Part shown: piece by piece, positions 23,828 through 37,907 of the stretch
Position numbering within the stretch: the stretch's first letter is position 1
How the letters are laid out: each line of letters begins with the position of its first letter
Source of the DNA: Bacteroidetes bacterium CG18_big_fil_WC_8_21_14_2_50_41_14
GTDB taxonomy: Bacteria > Bacteroidota > Bacteroidia > Bacteroidales > F082
Length of the DNA stretch: 40,129 bases
Assembly: GCA_002771745.1 (NCBI GenBank)
Contig: PCUL01000339.1
Span: 2,830 to 42,958 of the forward strand
Direction of reading: 5' to 3'
Translations under genes and position numbers: made by a program
Notes under the pieces: generated by a model
Seen by the model: the letters and a program-made list of their open reading frames with translations, nothing else
What the model was told of the DNA's origin: nothing
Database searches by the model: none

Positions 23828-24153
23828 GAAGCGGGACAAGCGGGAAGCGGGAATTCAATAGCGAAAAGTACTGCTTTTATTTTGTGGAAAAAATTCAAGT
23901 AATAACACAATCACCTCGGTATTGCATTGCCTGTTCGGGCTAGGGCCAGGAGTGATTGAGTCATGTTCTTGTAAAAAAAAATAGATTTACCTTTACAACT
24001 TTAAAACACCTGCTGATGAAAAATCCGTGAATAACGTTTCCTTTGCTCTTGCCTGGTAGTTGCTACAGATGATAATTGGTGATGACATGATGCAGTGATT
24101 GAGGTAATGATGCCCTTACTTTAATCACCAAATAACCCCTTAGCTAATATAAC

Positions 24154-25227
24154 ATGATATCCAAATATCAAATAAGAAACGCGATCTTCGAGATACAAAA
24201 ACCTTACCCGGCGGACGACCTGATTGTGAGTTACCGGGATTTTTTGAAATACCGGGATGTGTTGCGGTTCTATCAGTACAATGAACGGGTGCTTGGGCAT
24301 TTGGTTGATTTGACTGTTGAATTGTGGGGTTCAAAGGAAAGAGTTAGTCAGGCTTCGCTGCTTCAGGTAACGAAAAGGTATATGGCGAAGGCACCAAATA
24401 AGCTTTTTTCGGAGGAGATGAAAGCGAAGGTGTTTTGGTTGTTTGGGCAGGTGGTGGTGGTGGAAGACCTGCCGTATAATAAGAGATCCATTGAGTTGTT
24501 GAAGTTTTCAGCCAATAACATGCTTACGGGGATGTTGTTGACAGATGAGCAGTTGCATTGGCTGGTGGATCATGTGGATAGCTCTTATCACATGCTGAAC
24601 CGGTTGCTGCGTTACCCGTTGTCGTCGGAAATCATCAGCAATTGGGTAAGGAAACATTTTGAGTTGGATGCATACCGGATACGTAGGGCGGAAATGATTG
24701 GCTGGCTTTTAGATGAGGATACAAAATTTGTGGTTGATATGGGGGTGCTGGAAAGGGATTTTATATTTCATTGCCGACAGGATGAAAAGCACATTAAGGC
24801 ATATGAACTGGATTATGAAGCATATAAGGCCGTGAAAAATGATCTTGCATCCATGTACACTAATCACGACCTGAGTGAAGGTTTAAGGCGAGGGTGGATC
24901 GAGAATCCTTTTGTGAATTTTGAAGAGGAAAAACCTGAGTTTAAGTCAGCCAGGTGGCACTATTATACTGGCAAAAGTTATGATTCCAGCCATGATTATG
25001 ATAGGCCTGATGTGCAAAAGGAAAAGGAATATTTTTATAACCACCAAGATTTGGTGTTGAAATCGACCATGGCCTGGGCTATCGCTTATTCAAGGCTTGC
25101 TTTAAATGAAAAGGCAGAATTGCTAAAAGCGTATTTTCATCCAACTATTGACTATACTTTTTTTAAGATAGGTAAAAGGCTGGGGAGCGTGGAGTTTTTG
25201 GAATGGATTGGGGGAAATGATGCTTAA
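24154..25227 (+). CDS. Hypothetical protein (357 aa), no recognised family
   Basis: Intact long ORF; no motif recognised. Confidence 0.7.
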   Translation: MISKYQIRNAIFEIQKPYPADDLIVSYRDFLKYRDVLRFYQYNERVLGHLVDLTVELWGSKERVSQASLLQVTKRYMAKAPNKLFSEEMKAKVFWLFGQVVVVEDLPYNKRSIELLKFSANNMLTGMLLTDEQLHWLVDHVDSSYHMLNRLLRYPLSSEIISNWVRKHFELDAYRIRRAEMIGWLLDEDTKFVVDMGVLERDFIFHCRQDEKHIKAYELDYEAYKAVKNDLASMYTNHDLSEGLRRGWIENPFVNFEEEKPEFKSARWHYYTGKSYDSSHDYDRPDVQKEKEYFYNHQDLVLKSTMAWAIAYSRLALNEKAELLKAYFHPTIDYTFFKIGKRLGSVEFLEWIGGNDA

Positions 25228-25291
25228 CTGGGTTTTGGATGAGCGGGAATGGCAGAGTATGTACAAATTGCCCTGATACTTTGCAATGCAT

Positions 25292-25323
25292 ACTCGTTCT
25301 CGTGCGCTCAACCGAGAACGAGT
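25292..25323. repeat. Perfect 11-bp inverted repeat, divergent reverse-oriented relative of repeat module A; possibly also a terminator
   Basis: ACTCGTTCTCG-tgcgctcaac-CGAGAACGAGT then TTTTTG. Its reverse complement carries ACTCGTT..TTGAGCGCA..AACGAGT as in module A. Confidence 0.6.
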
Positions 25324-25390
25324 TTTTGTGGCTCTCAAAGCCATACCGGTACTTTTTCAGGAGTTTATATGATTTTGATAATCAGTTGGT

Positions 25391-28300
25391 TTATTCATCA
25401 ACAGGAACGCCGAATCCAGCAAAGTCGACCAAGTAAATATAACCTTGTTCCTGAGCTGCTGGTGACCAACTTATGTGAAAATCAGAATAAAAGCCATTTG
25501 CGTCTGGTTTTCCAGCTTTTCTCCAATCTGTCCAATTGTCAAAATCTTTAGGTTTGGTTTGGTCAAATTTTAAGGTGTCTTCATAACTCCAGACGACGAC
25601 TTCATTAACTATCAATCTTTTAATTTGTACGTGGGTTATTAATTTCCCAGCATCTCTCGAAAGTTCACCTATAACTTTTGTTGATCCTTCTTTGAATAAC
25701 TCGTAAACAGTAAGAGGGTGTCCTCCATTTGGCACGACACGCCTTTGAATAAAAATAAGATCCCCACTTTTAATGTGCTCTGAAATGTATCCATTGACTC
25801 CATTATTAAAGTTGAAATTCTTGGCAGCCCAGCCAATATTTAATTTTTGAATGCCTGGTTCAACAGGTATTCCCAATCTAGCTTGGTATTGTTCCGGCAA
25901 TTCATATGGTTTAGAAGACTTCATAGCAAGTTCTCTCTCAAAATCTACTACCAGAAGACGATACTTTGCTCTTGAATAAGCAACGAAAGCAAGCCTTTTT
26001 TCTTCGTTTATTGTATCATTAATTTGTTCTTCAGTCAAATCTTCAAATTGATTGAATGCCAAATTTGAGTATGAGGGAGTTATTATTACACAGTCAAACT
26101 CCAGTCCTTTAACTTTGTGCATTGTTGTAAGAACGATTTCTGTTTCATGATTTTCGGAAGAAATATTTCCCAGGTGCTTTTCGTAAATCTTATATAGCTG
26201 GCCATCATCTTTATAGGTTAATTCGGTGATGAACTCTAAAAGGCTATTGAAAACCTGACCATCCTCTTGCTCATCCATATATTCTAAAACAATTGCATGG
26301 ATTACTTTGATGTAAAAGTGATTCCAATTGGGATTTTGGTTTATCAATTTGCTTATAAATTCTTGTAAGATTTGTTTGAAGTCTACAGGGATTTGTTGAC
26401 CAGTTTTAGATTTTAGGAATAGTATTACAGCGTGACATTCTCTAATACGAGTGAATTCGTATGGCAAGCTACCCTGAATACGAATTCGTACGTTTGGAAG
26501 GTGTAACCCTTTTACCTTTTGAAAACCTCTGTATACCTCATTGTTTGTTCGGAAGAGAATTGCTATTTGCTTATATGAAAGTAGACCAACTCTTTCTTCC
26601 ATTAATATAGATATTTGATCCCACCAATCGACCCCTTGTTCTGTTCTGTCAATTATTTGAGCATAATTAGTAGTGAAACCCTCTTCGGGTCTTTTTGTAG
26701 CTTGTGGAATTAAATGTTGGTGATTTGCAGGGAGTTTCAATAATTGACTGGCACAGTCCAATATGGCAGGGTATGAACGGTGGTTATTAACCAGGGTGAA
26801 TTCTTTTGGGTTAAATCTTTCATTAAAATCTTTATAGTAGTGGTAAGGATCCATTACTTTTCTAGAATATCCGTAAATACTCTGATTGGGGTCGCCAATA
26901 ATAAATAAATATGCCTTAGTTAATTCATTAAGTTTATAAAGTAAGTCCATTCTGGTTTCATCAATATCCTGAAATTCATCCACTAAGATATGTTTTAGCG
27001 GGGCTATTTGATTCATTATTATACCAGGGGTTTTCTTTAGAATTTCGAGAAGTGTTTTTTCCCATTGTTCAAAAGGAAGTCCTTCAATTTCGCTTTGAGC
27101 ATATTTTTTTGTTAATCCATGAAATGTATAAATTTTTATTCTTTTAGCCAGATTACCGTATCCTAAATCGTTGAATAGTTTACCAAGTCGTTCCTTTAAC
27201 TCTGAAACGACAGCTCTGTTATAGGCTAACACTAATATTTCTTCAGCGTTTATATTAAAATGATGGATTAGCCTGGCCACTCTTAGGGTTAAGGTGTGGG
27301 TTTTTCCGGAACCCGGACCAGCCATAACATTAATATTCTGGTTTGGTTCGGCAAAGTAAATTAGTCTTTGTTCATCATTTAGCCTCTCATTTTCTTGATA
27401 TTTAATCGCATCGCCTCTAAATTTAGTTAAAATGGGATCGTTTGGATCAAGTTTACTTTCGACCAGGTTAATCAGCTCTACTTTGTTTTTACTTGCAAAA
27501 AAGCCTTTAATAAAGGCGTCTTTTTCCTCAACCGAATCAATTTTGGATAGTACCTCAAGCGTGACTAATTTTAGCTCCCGTACTTCTTTCGCCTCTTCAA
27601 AGTTTTGGCAAATCTTATCATCAAAAGACTCTTTTTTTGTTTCATCAATTTTTTCAACAGAATTCAAATAAACTTCAATGCCAGTAGGAAGCAATCCCCC
27701 TGTTTTACAATATCCTAAAACGGATAGTATGAAAAGAAGGTCTGACAGATACTGTACATTTTCTTTAAAATTCAATTTAGAAATAATGTCAGGCCAATTG
27801 AAGGTCTTAATGTTTTGTTCGAAACCTTGTATTGCTACATAATCCAATAGCTTGAGGCAATCTGTTTCTAGTTGTGTGATTTTGTTTGACCATTCTTCTT
27901 TTTTGTGATAGCCATTAAATATTGATTGTCTTATCCTTATTTTTCGATTTCCATCAATAACCTTTTCCATTTTGGTTTCGTGCTTGGTTTTTCCAAGTAG
28001 GCGAATGATGGTAAAGGCATGTTTGAGGCGCTTTTTTGTGAGATCCTCACAATATTTTTCCTTATTTTTTAGGGCAGATTTTGTAGTCGGGTTCACATGC
28101 CATGGCAAGTCAATAAAATCAGTATATTCATTTAAACTTTCATTAAAGAGAAGATCCAAGGCATCACCATCAAATATCCTGGTTTCATTTTTAGGAACTG
28201 AATTCATGATTTCTCTTGCAAATGAGAATATTGTAATTAATGCAGGGTATTTATTGACCTTTGTTTTTAGTTTGGAGTAATGAACTAATTCATCTCTACG

Positions 28301-31300
28301 AAGATTAGTCGGCTCAATAACTACCTCTTGAATTAATTTTAAGATCCCAGCTCTATGATTTTTTAGTAAGGCAGTGAATAGATTTGCTAAACTAAGTCTA
28401 GATGAACTTCGCAACGAGGCAATGGAAAGCTGCACTACCTCATTTGACAATGCTTTATCTGGGAGCAAGGCAACTATTGCTCGGCAAACACTTTCGCAAT
28501 CTTTATCCGGACAGCTCTTTATACGTTCAGGTAAATTAATCAATGCGGCAGTCTCAAATTCTAAATGAGTGATGGTGAAGTATCCCAACCTAATTCTTTT
28601 TAATCGCTCTAACCAATGTAGCCCAATTCTAAATGTATTAACCAGATCATCGTTTACAGAATCTTTTTCGTTTGAATAAAGATTAAATGGCACAGCCACT
28701 GGCACTTCATTATCAGGTACTAAAGGTTTGAACTTTGCTATATATTTCTCTAATACCAACATTACATCTTTTATCTCATGCCAAGAAATACTGCTTTTAT
28801 GCAGAAGACTCTTTAAAGTAGCAAAATCTTTATTAGTAGTAAGGCAAATTGTTTGTATCGGATTTCCTTGGGAATTAAAACCTGCTGCCAAACGTTGTTC
28901 TTCATTTCGGCCAGCCCTACCAACTTCTTGCAGGAAATCTTCAAAAGTACTTGGAGGTGAATAATGACTTAAATAGTGAATGTTAGGGATGTCCATTCCC
29001 ATGCCAAATGCTTTTGTTGCAAACAGCAATACTGTTTCACCTGACTTATATTTCTCGTATGTATCTTTTCGATCTTCGGCATCCATTCCTGCATGAAAAG
29101 CACCAACCTTATCAGCAAAACTACACTTGGGTCCAAATACTTTAATCAGGCTGTCCTTCATTAATAGTGAACATTCTTCAACTTTTTTTCTGCTTCTCAC
29201 AAAAACAATTACCCTACTTAGATCAGGATTAAACTTACTTGCTCTTAAATACTCGGCAATTTCAAGAAGTTTATCGTCTTCTACCACATTATGCTTGAAG
29301 TCAATTTTAATGTGGTCTCTGACAGGATTGTAATTTTTCTCCATACCAGTAACGGTTGAAATGCCTGGCATAAAAAGGCTTATATCTTCAAATACTTGCT
29401 CTGAAATTGTTGCAGAAAACAAGAGCTTACGCATTTGATAGACATCAGAGAAACCAGTGACCTTTCTGGCCGCATTTAAGTAATCGGGTCGAAACTCATG
29501 ACCCCATTGTGAAATACAGTGTGCTTCATCAAAAACGAAATACTCTAATCCATTGTCAGCATCCATCCTAGTGAGAAGACAGTTTTCAAAAGAACGAGAT
29601 CTAAACCTTTCGGGAGTTATGTATAGGAGAGCAATCTCACCACCAGCGATCCTGCGATAAATATTTTTAATTTCCACGAAGGATTTATCGCCGCTTAAAA
29701 ACTCAACATTGCTATAAAAGCCTTTATTCCATAGGGTGTCAACCTGATCCTCTATCAAAGCACGTAATGGACTAATAACAATTGAAAGTTTACAGGAAAA
29801 AGCTGACCTAAATAAAGCAGGTCCTTGAAACAACAAAGACTTACCTGCTCCGGTTGGTAGAGAAATGAGCAAATCTTTCTTTGAAGGTAAAATGTCGTTT
29901 AAGCATGGGTGCTGATAATCGTACCATGGATAAGGAGTCCCGCCGTCATCAGGAATTAAAAAGATTTGCCGAAGTATTTCTTTTGCTTCATCCACATCAA
30001 AATCGGTATTGGCGTTTATGTGTACCGAGGAAAAGAATTCATCAGCAATTTCTTTATCCCTATCATAATCAGCTTCCGTATGCCACATTTGAGCGTTCTT
30101 AGCATTGATATTCAAACTTTTCTCAATGCCGTAATAATCTGTAAGTCTTGTATCACACAGGAAGAGTTGCGAATCCTGATTGTTATCAAAAAGCATTTTA
30201 TAGTAATAATCAATAAGTGGTTTATGGACCTTTATAAGGGAGAACACATCATAATCCCTTTTGACAGAATTACTATCAGTTTGATAATCATCTTCCTTTT
30301 GCTCTTCACTTGTTTGTATATCCGACGAAGTCTTTCCCTTCAACATTTGCGACTTTTCTTGCAACAAAAAACTATCCCATATAAAATCCAATGGCCCGGC
30401 ATAATTGCTTGAAATTACTTTATCCAAGGACTTGAAAGAAGTTATTAATAACTTCTTAGATGACTTATGTGAATGCAGAAGCTCGACCTGTCGTGCTAAA
30501 GAAGCCTTTGAGTCAGGAATGAAATAACCTATCTTTCTAGCATAAGCTGACAGGTTTTCAGATTCCAACTCATCATTTACAATTAGAACTTTAGGAGTGT
30601 TTGTTTTGCTGATACCCTCAAATAATCTGAATTGATATGTCCAATAAATTTTTCTGTAAAGCGATTCCGGATTAACACGTTTTTGTTCAGCAATATAACC
30701 AGACTTTCGGGCATCTGGCCTCATGATGAAAGCATTTGGTTTAGTAAAAGATTCATCGATCCAATGAATATAAGAAATTTCTTTTGGAGCCAAGTCGTTT
30801 AAGATTGCTTCAAAGTTTAGATTGCACCATACTTTGAACTTACCCTTGCCGATTTTTTCTAACCATATATTTTGAACATTCTCAGGAAATTCAATGATGC
30901 CTAATTTTATACAATGACTTTGCTCAAGACTGATGAAACTTTTACCACCTGACATTTGCAGCCAAATAGGTTCATTTTTTAATCTATCGAAAATTAAAGC
31001 AAAATCAAGGTCCTGTCCTAATTGCAATCTGTTTGTTAGATTGTACAATTCGTTACCAATTACTATTACTTTTAAGTCTGAAATCAGATCTCTGTTCTGT
31101 TTAAGGATTTCAATGTCAGTAGGTTTAATACAGATGGGTTTGTTACCTACATTTCTGAGGTCCGCCCCAACATTGTCACAAATGAGCGTGGCCTGCTCAT
31201 GCGACAACTTCAGTTGAATTGCAACTGGTAAGTGTTGAAAATAGGGTGTCAATCCTTTTAGAATATAGTTGTCTACAAACCGGCAAAGGATAGTACTGAG

Positions 31301-33556
31301 CAGTTTATCATGACTTAAAGTTGCTTCAATTTTTTCTTTGTTTAAGCAAAAACCCAATGACTTGCTATCTGAATAAAATGTTAGGTCAAATTGATGGGAC
31401 AATGTGTTCCATATAAATTCCGGAGCAATTATTAGCTTATCCCCTTCCTCATCAAATTTTTCTTTGAGTTGAATAAATGTTTGCTCAGAGATATTTTGGT
31501 TTGTTGGATTTGGACGGTAAAATTCATGCGACTGTTTTACAAAATATTCATAATCTAACAATGCCCAATTCGGGTTAAGCCTCATTTGAGTGATTGCCTC
31601 AATTACTTTTTGAGGCAATAAATCTTTCATTATCTCATAGTTGTCTTCTGAAACCACTATTCTTGATAACTGATTTTTGAATAAAAGATAAGTAAGTTCC
31701 GCGTCAGATGCCGCACTGTGTTGTGCTTTAAGACCGTAACTGAAGCGTTCAGGGTTTAGCAACATTTCCACCTCAAGCGTATCCCATATTAAATCAGCGG
31801 CAGGTGAAGCACCATGATTAGCTAATATCGGAAGGTCAAACTCTTTAATGTTTTGACCTATTATTAATGTTTCAGAATTAATGCGCTTTACCAGTTCTGA
31901 AATGCCATCCTCCTGATTATCAAAATCTGTTTCCCTTTTAGTTCCTTCTTGACATTTCCAGGCATACTCGCTTATTTTTTCGCGATCAGACTCTAAATCG
32001 AAACACAAGAAGTCAATTTTTGAAAATTCTGTTTCAAGTATGCCAGCGATGTATTTTTCCTGATAATTATTTAGGGAAGGAAAAGAAGAATAGCAAGAAA
32101 GGATTTTGTTAGGTGGTAGCTTTTCGATAAAGTTAGACTTTTCATCATCGGTTTTTAACCCATTAATATACTCCATTGTAACAACTTCAGACAACTCGTG
32201 TATAAAGCCTTTGAAATACAATTCGACATAGAATTGATTGTTCTTTCCAACAAAATTAGCTTCCTCTAAAACAATGGAAGGAAATAGTTTTTTGAATGAT
32301 TCCAGGAAATTGGTAGCCGTTTCAAACTCTTCCACTGTATTAATTAGCCACCCTTGGCTAATTAAATACTTAAATGTCTCTTCAACTTGTTGAGAGGAGC
32401 CTTGTTCTTTATGCAACTTTAATAAGATCTGTTGCAAAGTCTGCCAATCTAATATGGGCAAAATTTCAGTATACCAAATGTCAATTTCTTTTTGGCTGGA
32501 TGGGATTGGAAGTATATCCAAATCGCCCTGAGCCCATAACGCAAAGCTGATTTTATTCAGAGATTTTTCTCTGTTTTTAAAAATTGCATGAAAAAAAGAA
32601 AAACCTTTAATGTTTTTGATCTCGTTATTTATTTCGGCAACATTCATCTCTTCAAAGTCGCTTATTACTTCGCCGTAAATAGACTTTAGATCAGCTACAC
32701 TAAGTTCAGTTTGGAGAAAATTTGCCAGCCATTCTATTGAACTTTTAAATTCTTGAAGATTGGGTAAAAGTTTGGTTATGATTTTCTTTCCGAAATCGAT
32801 GCAGTCTGATTTTTGAATTGACTCTTCCGGTAATATTGTGGCTTTCCAACTTGAAGATCGATATTTTGCGGTAATCATAGCAAAGCCAATCTCATACTTC
32901 TCAGATAAAGTAATCGCTTCCTCTAACTGATTACTCAATAATGGATAAGCGAAAGATTTTGATTCGGATTCTTTATTAAAAATAAAAACAGGAATTTTAT
33001 TTGATACCCTTATGGCATCTAATTCACCTGGTTTTTTACTTGATGCGGTTGTTTCAAAGGTTAAAATGTCATCATATACAATCTCTGGAGTAATCAATTT
33101 TGATCCTTTGAAATGGAAGTCCCTATGATCATCGTAACTATAAACAAATCCATAATTCTTTGATGTTTCGAACACTTTAACCCTGCCAAGCTTTTTACTG
33201 GATGAAGGTAATCTTGCAGGTTTATTACGAGTTGGTATTTTATCGATGTTTTTTAGCTGGTCAAAAGCAACCAATTTGTTTTCGGGTGCTACTTTGGCAG
33301 GAATTAAACTGTCGTAATTACTTACTCGTTGCCCTTTTAAAACCTTTTCGAGTTTTGACCTCAAATCCATTCTGGTAAACTTGGTTGCTGTTCGTGGATC
33401 AATGTCAACTGCAATTCTGAATAATTTAAGCGCATCGTCTGCCTGTTGGTTATTGATTTTTTCAAACCTGGACAAATTAAGTCCAAGGTGCTTCAATACA
33501 GTTTTAAGTTTTTCTACATCTATATTTTCACTCAATAGTTTGTCGCTAATTGACAT
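25391..33556 (-). CDS. Giant multidomain DNA-processing protein: cold-shock-like domain, DEDD exonuclease-like domain, RecQ-type helicase and UvrD-type helicase
   Basis: Uninterrupted 2721-aa ORF. CSD-like [29 protein letters not shown]; exonuclease-like [37 protein letters not shown]; SF2 [54 protein letters not shown]; SF1 [63 protein letters not shown]. Confidence 0.93.
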   Translation of the reverse strand: [2721 protein letters not shown]

Positions 33557-33762
33557 GTGTAATTGTATTTTATCTTAAAATTTACAAAAAGTACTATTAG
33601 TAGCTTAAGCTATCCAATCAGTCTGCAAGTTAGCAATAACATTCGATGATTCAATCACATTTTTATCATTTTTTAAAATAGTGTCAGTAATAAGTAGGAC
33701 AATGAGGGTTCTCCAATGGAGGAGTCAAGGTAACAGTTAGATGAATTTGCTGGAGCCCCCTT

Positions 33763-33795
33763 CCCTCGTACTCGTTTGAGCGAAGCGGTAACGAG
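33763..33795 (+). repeat. Intergenic repeat module A, copy A1
   Basis: CCCTCGTACTCGTTTGAGCGAAGCGGTAACGAG, followed by CTTGCCTACC and module-B-like sequence. Confidence 0.85.
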
Positions 33796-33865
33796 CTTGC
33801 CTACCTTCGGTAGGTAAACCTACCTTCATGCCTCCATGCCTACGGCAGGTAAACCTGCCACCCTT

Positions 33866-33900
33866 CCCTCGTACTCGTTTGAGCGTAGCGGTAACGAGTA
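33866..33900 (+). repeat. Intergenic repeat module A, copy A2
   Basis: CCCTCGTACTCGTTTGAGCGTAGCGGTAACGAGTA. Confidence 0.85.
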
Positions 33901-33990
33901 TTTTTAACCAGCAGCCAGTTTTTTTCTGTAGAAATGATGGGGATTGGTAGTATGATACACCAGACTCTTACGCTCGTGCCTCGCCCCTCA

Positions 33991-34023
33991 CTCGTACTCG
34001 TTTGAGCGTAGCGGTAACGAGTA
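33991..34023 (+). repeat. Intergenic repeat module A, copy A3
   Basis: CTCGTACTCGTTTGAGCGTAGCGGTAACGAGTA; followed by the module-C fragment CAAGTGCAA at 34033. Confidence 0.85.
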
Positions 34024-34103
34024 TCCGACAGCCAAGTGCAACACCACTTAGAAGGATTTGTGCTCAGTAAACAATTGCGTTAGTTCATATAACCTATATC
34101 AAT

Positions 34104-34202
34104 TATACGCACAAACATATAAATACTTAAACTTTTCATCATATATACGCACTTGCATATAATTTTATATATATTTGCAATATTATATTTAATTACATAT
34201 AA
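34104..34202. promoter_or_regulatory. Phased operator-like repeats upstream of hipB-like gene
   Basis: TATACGCACAAACATATAA (34104-34122), TATACGCACTTGCATATAA (34144-34162), TATATTTAATTACATATAA (34184-34202): exact 40-bp period. Candidate -7 TATATTTG at 34170-34177. Confidence 0.65.
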
Positions 34203-34426
34203 TGAAAACTATATCGCAATTTGTAAAAAATCGCCGCAAGGAGGTAAACCTTACCCAGGAAGAGTTTGCCCAACGGGCGGGCGTTGCCCTTACCGTGATA
34301 AGAAAAATTGAACAGGGAAAAACTAACCTTAACATGGATAAGGTAAACCTTGTACTTAGTATGTTTGGGCATGAGTTGGCAGCGGTTAGTAGTAAGGAAT
34401 TAAGAAACACAAAAGGTGAATCATGA
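34202..34426 (+). CDS. hipB: XRE-family HTH antitoxin, HipB-like
   Basis: FVKNRRKEVNLTQEEFAQRAGVALTVIRKIEQGKTNLNMDKVNLVLSMFGHEL; overlaps the next ORF in an ATGA junction. Confidence 0.9.
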   Translation: MKTISQFVKNRRKEVNLTQEEFAQRAGVALTVIRKIEQGKTNLNMDKVNLVLSMFGHELAAVSSKELRNTKGES

Positions 34427-34755
34427 GAAAAGCGCTCATATATTATGGCGATGCTGTTGCAGGTACTTTAACTGAATCTGACGATGGGGATTATGTTTTC
34501 AAATATGGTGATGAATATATCAAAGCCCATCCCAATCAACCCATTACACTCACCATGCCGGTTACTAACAAAGAGTTTAAGGACAATCGTTTATTTGCCT
34601 TCTTTGAAGGATTAATCCCCGAAGGCTGGCTACTGGATGTGGCTGCAAAAAACTGGAAGATTAACCCCAACGACAGAATGGGACTATTACTGGCATGCTG
34701 CAAAAACTGCATCGGGGCAGTTAGTGTAATACCAATACCTGAAGATAATGAATAA
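34423..34755 (+). CDS. HipA N-terminal-domain protein (HipS-like small subunit)
   Basis: 110 aa; LFAFFEGLIPEGWLLDVAAK..DRMGLLLACCKNCIGAVSVIP resembles the HipA N-terminal subdomain. Confidence 0.88.
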   Translation: MRKALIYYGDAVAGTLTESDDGDYVFKYGDEYIKAHPNQPITLTMPVTNKEFKDNRLFAFFEGLIPEGWLLDVAAKNWKINPNDRMGLLLACCKNCIGAVSVIPIPEDNE

Positions 34756-35689
34756 TAGATGTTTATATTGTTATAAGGAGCTTACCGGCCAGGTTGATTT
34801 TCATCACCTTTGCAGCATGTCGTTTTTTGGCACAAAAGAAGCTCCCGAGCTACCCTATTCTTTAGATCAGATGTTGGGACTTGCAAAATATGTTGTAGAA
34901 CATAGCGTTTCAGTACCCGGTGTTCAGGCAAAATTATCCATGTCGTTAATAAAGGAAGTACAACAGAGAGAAAACAACCGGTTAACTGTAGTTGGGGCTT
35001 TGGGTGGAAATTATATATTCAAACCTCCGAACAATGATTTTCGGGAGATCCCACAAAATGAGCATGCCACCATGCGAATAGCCGAAGCTATGGGGTTAAG
35101 AGTTGTTCCATCAAGCTTAATCAGGTTACAATCAGGTGAGCTATCGTATATCACCAAACGGATAGACCGAACCCCGGAAGGCAGTAAAATTCATATGCTT
35201 GATATGTTCCAACTTACTGATGCCTACGATAAATATAAAAGTTCGATGGAGAAAATCGGGAAGGCAATATCCATGTATTCTGACAATACATTGCTGGACT
35301 TACTTTACTTGTTTGAGTTGACAATATTTAGCTTTCTCACAGGCAACAATGATATGCATCTTAAAAATTTCTCCTTAATAAATACAAATTCTAGATGGAT
35401 ACTTTCTCCGGCTTATGATTTGCTTAATGTGTCGATACTTAATCCTAAAGATAAAGAAGAACTTGCTTTGCCCATTGATGGCAAAAAGAAAAAGTTGAAA
35501 AGGATGCATTTTGAATTATTTGGTAGTTCTTTAGGGCTGAATTCTAAACAAATATCTGGTGTATTAAACCGTTATCAAGCCAGCTTACCTGCTGTTGAAA
35601 GTATGATTAATCAATCTTTTCTTTCGATTGAAATGAAGTCAAAATACATGGAACTTTATCATGATCGTCATGCGGTTCTGTTTTTATAA
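34748..35689 (+). CDS. HipA C-terminal kinase-domain protein (HipT-like)
   Basis: SVSVPGVQAKLSM Gly-rich loop; YIFKPP; ENEHATMRIAEAMG-like NEHATMRIAEAMG; catalytic FLTGNNDMHLKNFSLI; metal-binding LSPAYDLLNVSI. Confidence 0.9.
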   Translation: MNNRCLYCYKELTGQVDFHHLCSMSFFGTKEAPELPYSLDQMLGLAKYVVEHSVSVPGVQAKLSMSLIKEVQQRENNRLTVVGALGGNYIFKPPNNDFREIPQNEHATMRIAEAMGLRVVPSSLIRLQSGELSYITKRIDRTPEGSKIHMLDMFQLTDAYDKYKSSMEKIGKAISMYSDNTLLDLLYLFELTIFSFLTGNNDMHLKNFSLINTNSRWILSPAYDLLNVSILNPKDKEELALPIDGKKKKLKRMHFELFGSSLGLNSKQISGVLNRYQASLPAVESMINQSFLSIEMKSKYMELYHDRHAVLFL

Positions 35690-35738
35690 CCAGCATCACG
35701 ACTGTTCATTTCGAGGGGAGAAATCCCCCCTCCCCCGA

Positions 35739-35763
35739 ACTCGTTTGAGCGCAGCGGTAACGA
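35739..35763 (+). repeat. Intergenic repeat module A, copy A4
   Basis: ACTCGTTTGAGCGCAGCGGTAACGA followed by TCTTGCCTACC. Confidence 0.8.
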
Positions 35764-35768
35764 TCTTG

Positions 35769-35802
35769 CCTACCTACGGCAGGTTCACCTGCCGTAGGTA
35801 GG
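35769..35802. repeat. Module B: perfect 15-bp inverted repeat
   Basis: CCTACCTACGGCAGG-TTCA-CCTGCCGTAGGTAGG. Confidence 0.9.
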
Positions 35803-35814
35803 TAAACAGGCAGA

Positions 35815-35840
35815 CAAGTGCAATGCGTTCGCTCCCTAAA
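35815..35840 (+). repeat. Module C, copy 1
   Basis: CAAGTGCAATGCGTTCGCTCCCTAAA, identical over 26 bp to 37481-37506. Confidence 0.9.
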
Positions 35841-36031
35841 TCAAGGATCGCCTTGTTAGTGATTTTTAGCTTATTTTGTTGGGATAAAAAATTGACCGGG
35901 AGAATAGCTGCATTTTTTATACAGTATCCTGCAACTTATGTATGGTTTTATCTGTAAAATTGCTGAATTAAATCGCAAGATTTAAGGTTAAAACATTTAT
36001 TTGCGAATAAAAGAATTGGCATATTGTACTG

Positions 36032-36075
36032 TGTAAGATACATAATTATATTACATTTGTATCTTGTAAGGTACA
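36032..36075. promoter_or_regulatory. Operator-like repeats around a TAnnTTTG promoter of the AAA ATPase gene
   Basis: TGTAAGATACA (36032-36042), TGTATCTT (36058-36065, inverted to AAGATACA), TGTAAGGTACA (36065-36075); TACATTTG at 36052-36059. Confidence 0.55.
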
Positions 36076-36088
36076 AAAATAGGGTTTT

Positions 36089-37288
36089 ATGGAAATTCAA
36101 CGACTTAAAACATTTTCAACGCTTAGGGTGATGAACCTGCCCATGGATTTTAAGCGTTATCTTTATGATGACATGATTTGGTCGGACAGGCTGATCGGTC
36201 TTTCGGGAGCGAGGGGAACGGGTAAGACGACCCTGATGCTGCAGCGATTAAAGAGTCTTGGGCTGGCGGCTGAAGAGGCGCTTTATGTAAGTTTGGATGA
36301 TATGTTTTTTACAGATAACAAGCTGGTGTATTTTGCCGAAGACTATTATGCACATGGGGGGAAGTATCTGTTTTTGGATGAAATTCACAAGTATGGGAAC
36401 TGGTCGCAGGAATTGAAGAATATTTATGATAACCTGCCTGAGTTAAAGGTAGTGTTTACAAGCTCATCGGCACTCGACATACACCGCGGACAATACGATT
36501 TAAGCCGCAGGGCTTTGGTTTATAAACTTGCAGGACTTTCGTTCAGGGAATACATCAACTTCGTATACGGATTGCATCTGGCACCCCTGACTTTGGAAGA
36601 GGTGCTGCATATTTCTGTAGATAAAATATCGGAGATCTCCCAGCCTGAAAAGCCTTTGATGTTATTTTCAACCTACCTTAAAACAGGATATTATCCGTTT
36701 TTTGCAGAATATAAGGAATCATATTTTCTTCGGCTGACGGAAGTGTTAAATACGGTGCTGGAATCGGATTTGCCGGGTATCTTTAATATTGATGTTTCTT
36801 CGGTCGTCAAGCTGAAAAAGTTTATCTATTTATTGTCTTCGATGGTTCCGTTTACGCCAAATATCTCGAAACTTGCTGAAAGATTAAATGTAACCCGTCC
36901 GGGTTTGTTGCGATACATCGAGCTACTGGATCGGGCTAACATACTGAATTTGTTGACCGAGAATCCGTTTGGAATTAATTACCTGAATAAACCGGAAAAG
37001 ATATTTCTTGAGAACACCAATCTGATGTATGCATACGATGAAAACAATGTGAATAAGGGTACACTGAGAGAGACCTTTTTCTTAAACCAATTGGCTGTAA
37101 AACATTCGGTAAGTTATCCAAAGGATGGTGATTTTATGGTAGATGCAAAATACTTGTTCGAGGTGGGCGGAAAGAACAAGTCCGGCAAACAGATTGTTGA
37201 CCACGGCAATGCATATATTGCCTCCGACGAGATTGAATACAGGACAGGCAATAAAATACCACTCTGGCTATTTGGTTTTTTATACTAG
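36089..37288 (+). CDS. AAA-type ATPase with C-terminal DUF4143-like domain
   Basis: LIGLSGARGTGKTTLMLQRLKSL (Walker A), YLFLDEIHKYGNWSQELKNIYDNLPELKVVFTSSSALDI (Walker B/sensor), C-terminal FLNQLAVKHSVSYPKDGDFMVDAKYLFEVGGKNKSGKQI. Confidence 0.9.
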   Translation: MEIQRLKTFSTLRVMNLPMDFKRYLYDDMIWSDRLIGLSGARGTGKTTLMLQRLKSLGLAAEEALYVSLDDMFFTDNKLVYFAEDYYAHGGKYLFLDEIHKYGNWSQELKNIYDNLPELKVVFTSSSALDIHRGQYDLSRRALVYKLAGLSFREYINFVYGLHLAPLTLEEVLHISVDKISEISQPEKPLMLFSTYLKTGYYPFFAEYKESYFLRLTEVLNTVLESDLPGIFNIDVSSVVKLKKFIYLLSSMVPFTPNISKLAERLNVTRPGLLRYIELLDRANILNLLTENPFGINYLNKPEKIFLENTNLMYAYDENNVNKGTLRETFFLNQLAVKHSVSYPKDGDFMVDAKYLFEVGGKNKSGKQIVDHGNAYIASDEIEYRTGNKIPLWLFGFLY

Positions 37289-37324
37289 CCGCTCGGGTTT
37301 TCAATATAAAAACCCCCTCTCTCA

Positions 37325-37355
37325 CTCGTACTCTTTTGAGCACAGCGGTATCGAG
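37325..37355 (+). repeat. Intergenic repeat module A, copy A5 (divergent)
   Basis: CTCGTACTCTTTTGAGCACAGCGGTATCGAG; followed by module-B-like CTACCGTAGGCCGGTTCACCTGCCGTAGGCAGG. Confidence 0.75.
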
Positions 37356-37480
37356 CTTACCTACCGTAGGCCGGTTCACCTGCCGTAGGCAGGTAAATCT
37401 GCCGCCCTTTAGCAGGGATGCTAACCTCTCTCAGCATAGTTTCATGCCTTCTGCCTCCGTGACTCCGTTACTCCGGCAAC

Positions 37481-37506
37481 CAAGTGCAATGCGTTCGCTC
37501 CCTAAA
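37481..37506 (+). repeat. Module C, copy 2
   Basis: CAAGTGCAATGCGTTCGCTCCCTAAA, identical to 35815-35840. Confidence 0.9.
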
Positions 37507-37559
37507 AAACCTACAATTAGTGATTTCCCTGTTATTGATTTTTAAGTAATTTTGCTCGT

Positions 37560-37907
37560 ATGAAAATAATTGACAGAGATAATAAAATCGCATTTGCCGA
37601 ACTGGAACTGATGGCAGAAAGCATGTTTGGTGATTTGATAAAAGCAGTTGTTGATACTGAAAATGAAATAATGGCCCTGAATGCAGAGTTACATGCTGAC
37701 GAGGAAAAGGAACTTTTAGTCATGGGCTCCAGGCAAGAAAACTTATGGGGAATCAACCTTTATCCTGAAGAAACCGGTGATGACTTTATCGAATTCGATT
37801 CGATGATAAACTTGCGCCCCTCATGGGGCAATAAAAGCAGGGGTGTTGATGATAAACAAACTCAAGCCAAAATCGTCAATATCGTAAACTCCTTGGTTGA
37901 GCGATAA
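37560..37907 (+). CDS. DUF5674-like protein
   Basis: FAELELMAESMFGDLIKAVVDTENEIMALNAELHADEEKELLVMGSRQENLWGINLYPEETGDDFIEFDSMINLRPSWGNKSRGV resembles DUF5674 as I recall it. Confidence 0.75.
   Translation: MKIIDRDNKIAFAELELMAESMFGDLIKAVVDTENEIMALNAELHADEEKELLVMGSRQENLWGINLYPEETGDDFIEFDSMINLRPSWGNKSRGVDDKQTQAKIVNIVNSLVER

Follow-up and report, generated by a model that had tools for sequence, protein, structure and literature searches.

The 40,129-nucleotide stretch of a Bacteroidales genome analysed here (the window) carries one very long gene that encodes two helicase motors of opposite superfamilies together with a putative nuclease. What such a machine would do for a bacterium, and whether it belongs to a system already described, are the questions that this locus raises. 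The answer proposed below builds on the domains of the protein, the island on which its gene resides, the spread of its relatives and the company that they keep.

Domain organization of the giant protein

The gene occupies positions 25391-33556 of the reverse strand as an ATG-initiated ORF of 2721 amino acids without any internal stop, just as the initial annotation had described it, and the motif positions given there are correct within about 20-50 nt. The following layout was obtained:

25391..33556, minus strand: whole ORF, (N-domain)-CSD-(helical)-DEDDh exonuclease-(conserved middle)-RecQ-(linker)-UvrD-(C-domain)
33203..33556, minus strand: N-terminal domain, residues 1-118, fast-evolving
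32987..33199, minus strand: predicted CSD/OB (cold-shock) domain, residues 120-190, from the family profile against PDB CspE
31622..32029, minus strand: predicted DEDDh 3'-5' exonuclease domain, residues 510-645, with D520, E522, D574, H613 and D618
29957..31609, minus strand: conserved middle region with no assigned fold, residues 650-1200
29366..29944, minus strand: RecQ RecA-like lobe 1, residues 1205-1397, with Walker A K1239, DEAH 1343-1346 and SAT 1381-1383
28832..29344, minus strand: RecQ RecA-like lobe 2, residues 1405-1575, with Q1543, R1547 and R1550
27407..28831, minus strand: inter-motor region without Pfam match, residues 1576-2050
25922..27394, minus strand: UvrD-type SF1 helicase, residues 2055-2545, with K2085, D2193-E2194 and R2529

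An HMM search of the full protein recovered both motors through Pfam, RecQ with DEAD (1.9e-31) and Helicase_C (1.8e-17), and UvrD with UvrD-helicase PF00580 (3.4e-33) and UvrD_C PF13361 (1.8e-17), the latter accompanied by the SF1A motor motifs. The SF2 RecQ motifs (Walker A, DEAH, SAT and QxxGRxGR) are present and invariant in 14 relatives, and the same holds for the catalytic residues of RecQ, UvrD and the DEDDh domain that were checked across all 14 aligned relatives, while every domain of the protein is under purifying selection (dN/dS 0.02-0.47). The RecQ-type (lobes at 1213-1388 and 1447-1551) and UvrD-type (2059-2540) nature of the two motors is certain, and both have kept their catalytic motifs as previously claimed. 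The NCBIfam model recQ TIGR01389 matches at 1.4e-60 over the motor only, with 205 bits that stay below the 640-bit equivalog cut-off, and the RQC, RecQ_Zn_bind and HRDC C-terminal domains gave no Pfam match in the giant protein up to E=1. Members of the RecQ and UvrD families are 3'-to-5' translocases, and they also serve ordinary repair.

The cold-shock domain (CSD) is marginal in the single window sequence (Pfam E=0.12), but a five-member family profile matched the CspE/CspC structures of the PDB at 1.7e-4 exactly over the CSD stretch, and the N-terminal protein of a split homologue from Rhodobacter reached 1.1e-5 with the Pfam CSD model, so that the family profile backs the CSD-like domain of the initial annotation. 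The exonuclease gave no Pfam match in the window sequence; the hhalign comparison of the family profile with a DnaQ/DinG-exonuclease profile yielded a Prob of 95% (E 3.3e-8) and a score of 54.8, whereas none of 60 block-shuffled controls scored above 34.3. Its D-x-E, N-xxx-FD and H-x4-D motifs supply D520, E522, D574, H613 and D618, a complete DEDDh set that is invariant in the 14 relatives, and on this profile and residue evidence the DEDD-type region of the initial annotation is a DEDDh domain. An AlphaFold crop of the exonuclease (pLDDT 67) found no significant PDB match (E above 0.3); most of its top-ranked matches were polymerases of the DNA polymerase I/T7 type that contain a 3'-5' exonuclease domain, EXD2 being another, and none served as proof.

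Residues 650-1200, the middle region, show good conservation (24-78% identity over 10 members). The suggestion that it could be a degenerate DinG/XPD helicase was not borne out: hhalign gave a Prob of 1.5-4%, and the only match above 60 shuffles was one of 27 columns resembling motif VI, again with a Prob of at most 4%. An AlphaFold (AF2) model of residues 500-1215, built on four near-identical rows, had a pLDDT of 38.5 and was discarded. At the other end of the conservation scale, the N-terminal domain (1-118) shows 46% identity between the Larkinella and Sediminibacterium homologues versus 96-100% in the following segments, and a dS of 1.2-1.6 versus 0.02-0.17 in the remainder. These first ~118 residues of the Larkinella protein (L010:10001-10350) have, by this comparison of sequences, been exchanged by recombination, which suggests a swappable partner or targeting module. 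In another homologue (G883), the first ~40 residues resemble by eye an IF2_N-type small helical domain.

The genomic island in the source genome

The giant gene lies on an island with the following features:

about 23950-37375: genomic island of about 13.4 kb, with an empty site in four congeners (DNA alignment)
24154..25227, plus strand: 357-aa accessory protein on the island, no Pfam match, absent from the four congeners
34202..35689, plus strand: HTH + HipA-N + HipA-C toxin-antitoxin module on the island (Pfam HTH_3, Couple_hipA, HipA_C)
36089..37288, plus strand: AAA_14/DUF4143 ATPase on the island (Pfam)

The flanks, glycosyltransferase/sigma-factor genes on one side and urocanase on the other, are 15.8 kb apart here versus 0.7-2.8 kb in the four congeners, in two of which they are 94-96% identical and contiguous. 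The GC content of the giant gene is 35.3%, versus 42-44% for most flanking genes. The accessory-island location proposed at the outset is thus confirmed by its absence from all four congeners. Between the island modules, beside HipA and AAA (33758-34024, 35725-35890 and 37316-37566), there are families of direct repeats that measure up to 82 nt and resemble one another at 74-94%, and the same repeat families also occur beside a DUF5674 gene in congeners; they may be cassette boundaries. Elsewhere in the source genome there are a broken pAgo fragment with internal stops (G000:C194:8323-9042) and a second, diverged pAgo gene (G000:C350:3996-5858).

A rare and mobile family

Full-length copies about 70% identical to the window protein were found in Sediminibacterium sp. 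C3, Larkinella sp. C7 and a Flavobacterium MAG. These three copies share 94.5-96% DNA identity over 8.1 kb and, since this similarity spans three families, the giant gene has been transferred recently. Profile searches recovered members in 8 of the 390 genomes from the order of Larkinella and in 3 of 398 from that of Sediminibacterium (each count including the genome named), in 2/396 of a phylum-wide sample (the source genome plus one partial match to the exonuclease region), and in a single genome, the source itself, among 100 of its family. Two Hymenobacter plasmids carry the family as well, and a search of IMG/VR contigs with the window protein detected no member, the phages giving helicase-domain matches only. 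The family is rare, patchy and mobile. Not all copies are intact: the Sediminibacterium C3 gene (L009:10001-18135) has a frameshift close to the C-terminus, at about L009:17750, and the copy on the Hymenobacter cellulosilyticus plasmid (L014:10537-18536) is reduced to several short ORFs next to a DruE gene that is fragmented too, so that it looks decayed or mis-sequenced.

A RecQ motor divided between two genes

In 8 of the 14 relatives, namely six genomes plus both Hymenobacter plasmids, two overlapping genes replace the single one. The split point is constant and separates the two RecA lobes of RecQ precisely: protein A, of 1355-1534 aa, stops 13-20 residues past the SAT motif, and protein B (1288-1313 aa) has RecQ lobe 2 at its start. 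The genes overlap by 1 nt (TAATG) in three genomes, by 4 nt (ATGA) in two genomes and one plasmid, and by 17 nt in one genome and one plasmid. Overlaps of 1 and 4 nt place gene B in one frame and those of 17 nt in the other, with the protein break unchanged, and on these grounds a programmed frameshift is rejected; because the frames differ while the break is constant, translational coupling of two genes fits. Fused and split forms fall on opposite sides of one tree branch (support 99/100), and a sequencing error is an unlikely cause of a split whose six genomes and one plasmid form one side of that branch.

In the split form, Walker A and B reside in protein A and the arginine fingers in protein B, all of them invariant. 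From the established structure of SF2 helicases, the two chains must come together for a RecQ ATPase to exist, and we infer that the motor of this clade is assembled from two polypeptides.

Defence genes in the neighbourhood of the relatives

PADLOC scans and local comparisons were used to identify the neighbours of each relative:

Sediminibacterium: brxC-pglX-pglZ-brxA, then pAgo, then the giant gene, then McrBC
Larkinella: type I RM and an RtcR-like regulator
G883: DrmMI, a DpdE-like helicase and a gene with an MkoA-like C-terminus (DISARM/Dpd-like)
G823: BREX brxABC-pglX
G844: McrB-like genes
G625: pPIWI-RE and a GajB-like helicase
G841: giant gene inserted between hsdS and hsdR (type I RM), then zorA, zorB and zorD
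G778: hsdM-hsdS
G668: hsdM-hsdS-hsdR, McrB-like, DrmMI and TmtA
G1215: hsdM-hsdS-hsdR, the giant gene, then an McrB-like gene
Hymenobacter plasmids: DruE, and DrmD with PDC-S68 and a type III MTase
G1145 (exception; scanned against the local set only): housekeeping and IS-like transposase genes
Flavobacterium MAG (exception): a pAgo remnant only

Defence-type genes (BREX, type I/III RM, DISARM-, Druantia- and Zorya-type, McrBC, pPIWI-RE or pAgo) therefore adjoin 12 of the 14 relatives, and the survey of homologues for a link to defence islands that had been proposed came out in its favour. Together with the patchy distribution and the transfer between families, this argues that the gene is neither ubiquitous, nor vertically inherited, nor independent of islands. 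HsdM-type methylases (PF02384, with a background of 0-7 per genome) occur within 20 kb of 4 out of 11 loci versus 0.26 expected (~15-fold, P about 5e-5), although part of this methylase and defence enrichment could reflect the general island habit of accessory genes. In Sediminibacterium C3, BREX, pAgo and the giant gene follow one another in one run (L009:7928-9979 and L009:10001-18135). As for the toxin-antitoxin setting mentioned by the initial annotation, a HipA-type module is indeed on the window's island, where no classical restriction system was found, but the recurring context of the relatives is type I RM, McrBC and BREX.

Possible functions of the giant helicase-nuclease

One chain on a transferable island thus holds a CSD, an intact DEDDh exonuclease, and intact RecQ and UvrD motors. 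The best reading, which we favour by a modest degree, is that of a mobile, defence-island-borne machine degrading or dismantling invading DNA beside restriction systems; the giant protein is probably an uncharacterised anti-virus machine. Going by what is typical of each family, binding to single-stranded nucleic acid, or to a partner, would fall to the CSD and the N-terminal part, while forks, gaps or ends would be opened by the RecQ and UvrD motors and the exposed 3' strands or ends removed by the exonuclease. With two 3'-5' motors, the machine would be expected to work on the two arms of a fork or gap, or with one motor behind the other along a single strand. The outcome would be phage or plasmid DNA destroyed or irreversibly dismantled, above all where the neighbouring type I RM, McrBC, BREX or pAgo expose it in a broken or replicating state. 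In the sister clade, the same machine would work as an A:B pair, with the RecQ ATP site formed between two polypeptides. A more daring version, put forward tentatively, is a new defence family in which a shared exonuclease-RecQ-UvrD machine disposes of the DNA exposed by any adjoining restriction system; one of its clades would assemble the RecQ ATPase in trans (lobe 1 from the end of A, lobe 2 from the start of B), so that the pairing of the chains would switch the motor on.

The main rival, which we consider rather unlikely, is an accessory repair role, in which the protein would process the damage (breaks, R-loops or stalled forks) that adjoining restriction systems inflict on host DNA, and so protect the host instead of attacking the invader. 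UvrD and RecQ are repair families, the union of exonuclease and RecQ resembles the WRN/RecQ repair enzymes, and the gene does adjoin nuclease systems; on the other hand, a rare, patchy and mobile family is unlike core repair, and the giant gene is also found without an adjoining RM operon. The plasmid-borne state of the two Hymenobacter copies, together with the frequency of RecQ-UvrD proteins on plasmids and the presence of HipA both beside the window copy (as a toxin-antitoxin) and, as a homologue, some 11 kb from its Hymenobacter cellulosilyticus counterpart, would suit instead an aid to the replication, recombination or transfer of the carrier islands and plasmids. However, no replicase, relaxase or integrase is constantly linked, the recurring neighbours are defence genes, and the window query retrieved none in IMG/VR beyond helicase-domain matches in phages, all of which makes this role improbable.

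Least probable by far is that an adjacent pAgo guides the giant helicase-nuclease onto target DNA. The idea stems from Sediminibacterium, where the giant gene is preceded on the same strand, at a distance of about 20 bp, by an intact pAgo, and from the Flavobacterium MAG, with a degraded pAgo C-terminus at the same place; but these two copies are 96% identical and hence represent one event, and the other 12 relatives lack the arrangement. Eight other close pAgo homologues of Bacteroidota have no giant helicase in their available flanks, and an obligate partnership with pAgo is rejected since such homologues exist elsewhere without the giant gene.

The locus adds a candidate helicase-nuclease defence family, whose recurrence next to restriction systems of very different kinds points to DNA disposal as a shared downstream step. 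The split clade makes it possible to ask, in a natural setting, if the ATP site of an SF2 helicase can be built from two polypeptides; in that case, the assembly of the motor would itself be a control point.

Comparison with known systems

The individual domains and the RecQ-UvrD pairing are already known from annotation, as the initial annotation had suspected for the pairing. PADLOC-DB 2.0.0 has no model of the CSD-exonuclease-middle-RecQ-UvrD architecture, only stray motor-domain matches, and no description was found in the searchable, mostly non-subscription papers on RecQ-UvrD fusions, RecQ in defence islands or split helicases. Neither of these two sources describes the family as a whole, how mobile it is, its tendency to reside in defence islands or, above all, its split RecQ motor, and no priority is claimed.

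The best PADLOC matches (Gabija GajB, DpdF and PsyrT) each cover one motor of the giant protein only. The GajB match extends over the UvrD part, and no OLD/TOPRIM (GajA) was seen among the island proteins scanned; the DpdF model NF041063 scores 137 bits versus a cut-off of 550, with no Dpd gene recognised among the window ORFs; and the PsyrTA match is confined to the RecQ motor, with no phosphoribosyltransferase (PsyrA) among ten neighbour proteins scanned. Because the defining partners tested are missing, the giant family is not a member of Gabija, Dpd or PsyrTA. In the TOTE/TALON conflict systems, helicase/nuclease effectors go together with a CSD that is fused to helical (TPR) repeats (PMC12458937), a resemblance at the level of the plan only, as neither a TBP-like gene nor a TPR match was found for the giant protein. 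The nearest functional analogue would be Hna, an abortive anti-phage defence in which a helicase/ATPase is coupled to 3'-5' ssDNA exonuclease activity, a likeness drawn from its described function only and with no membership claimed (PMC13381803).

In architecture, the closest proteins are the RecQ-UvrD fusions of plasmids and chromosomes ('RecQ family ATP-dependent DNA helicase', ~1540-1760 aa), which likewise carry RecQ and then UvrD in one chain, in some cases behind a DEDD-like (exonuclease-like) N-terminal domain. However, they lack the CSD and the conserved 550-aa middle region, are unsplit, share about 30% identity with the giant family over the motors, and sit on a deep, separate branch of the tree. 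The source genome itself encodes a second fusion of 1602 aa (G000:C295; L057:1683-6491), with an exonuclease-like N-terminus and about 28% identity over the RecQ motor. Finally, a plasmid of Rhodobacter sp. CZR27 (L016:5084-12485) bears, amid IS elements, an alphaproteobacterial counterpart in which adjacent genes for a CSD-exonuclease, a 134-aa protein and a RecQ-UvrD reproduce the domain content and order of the giant protein; this locus, the one instance in the plasmid collection, differs in being cut at other sites, in keeping RecQ intact and in being far more diverged.
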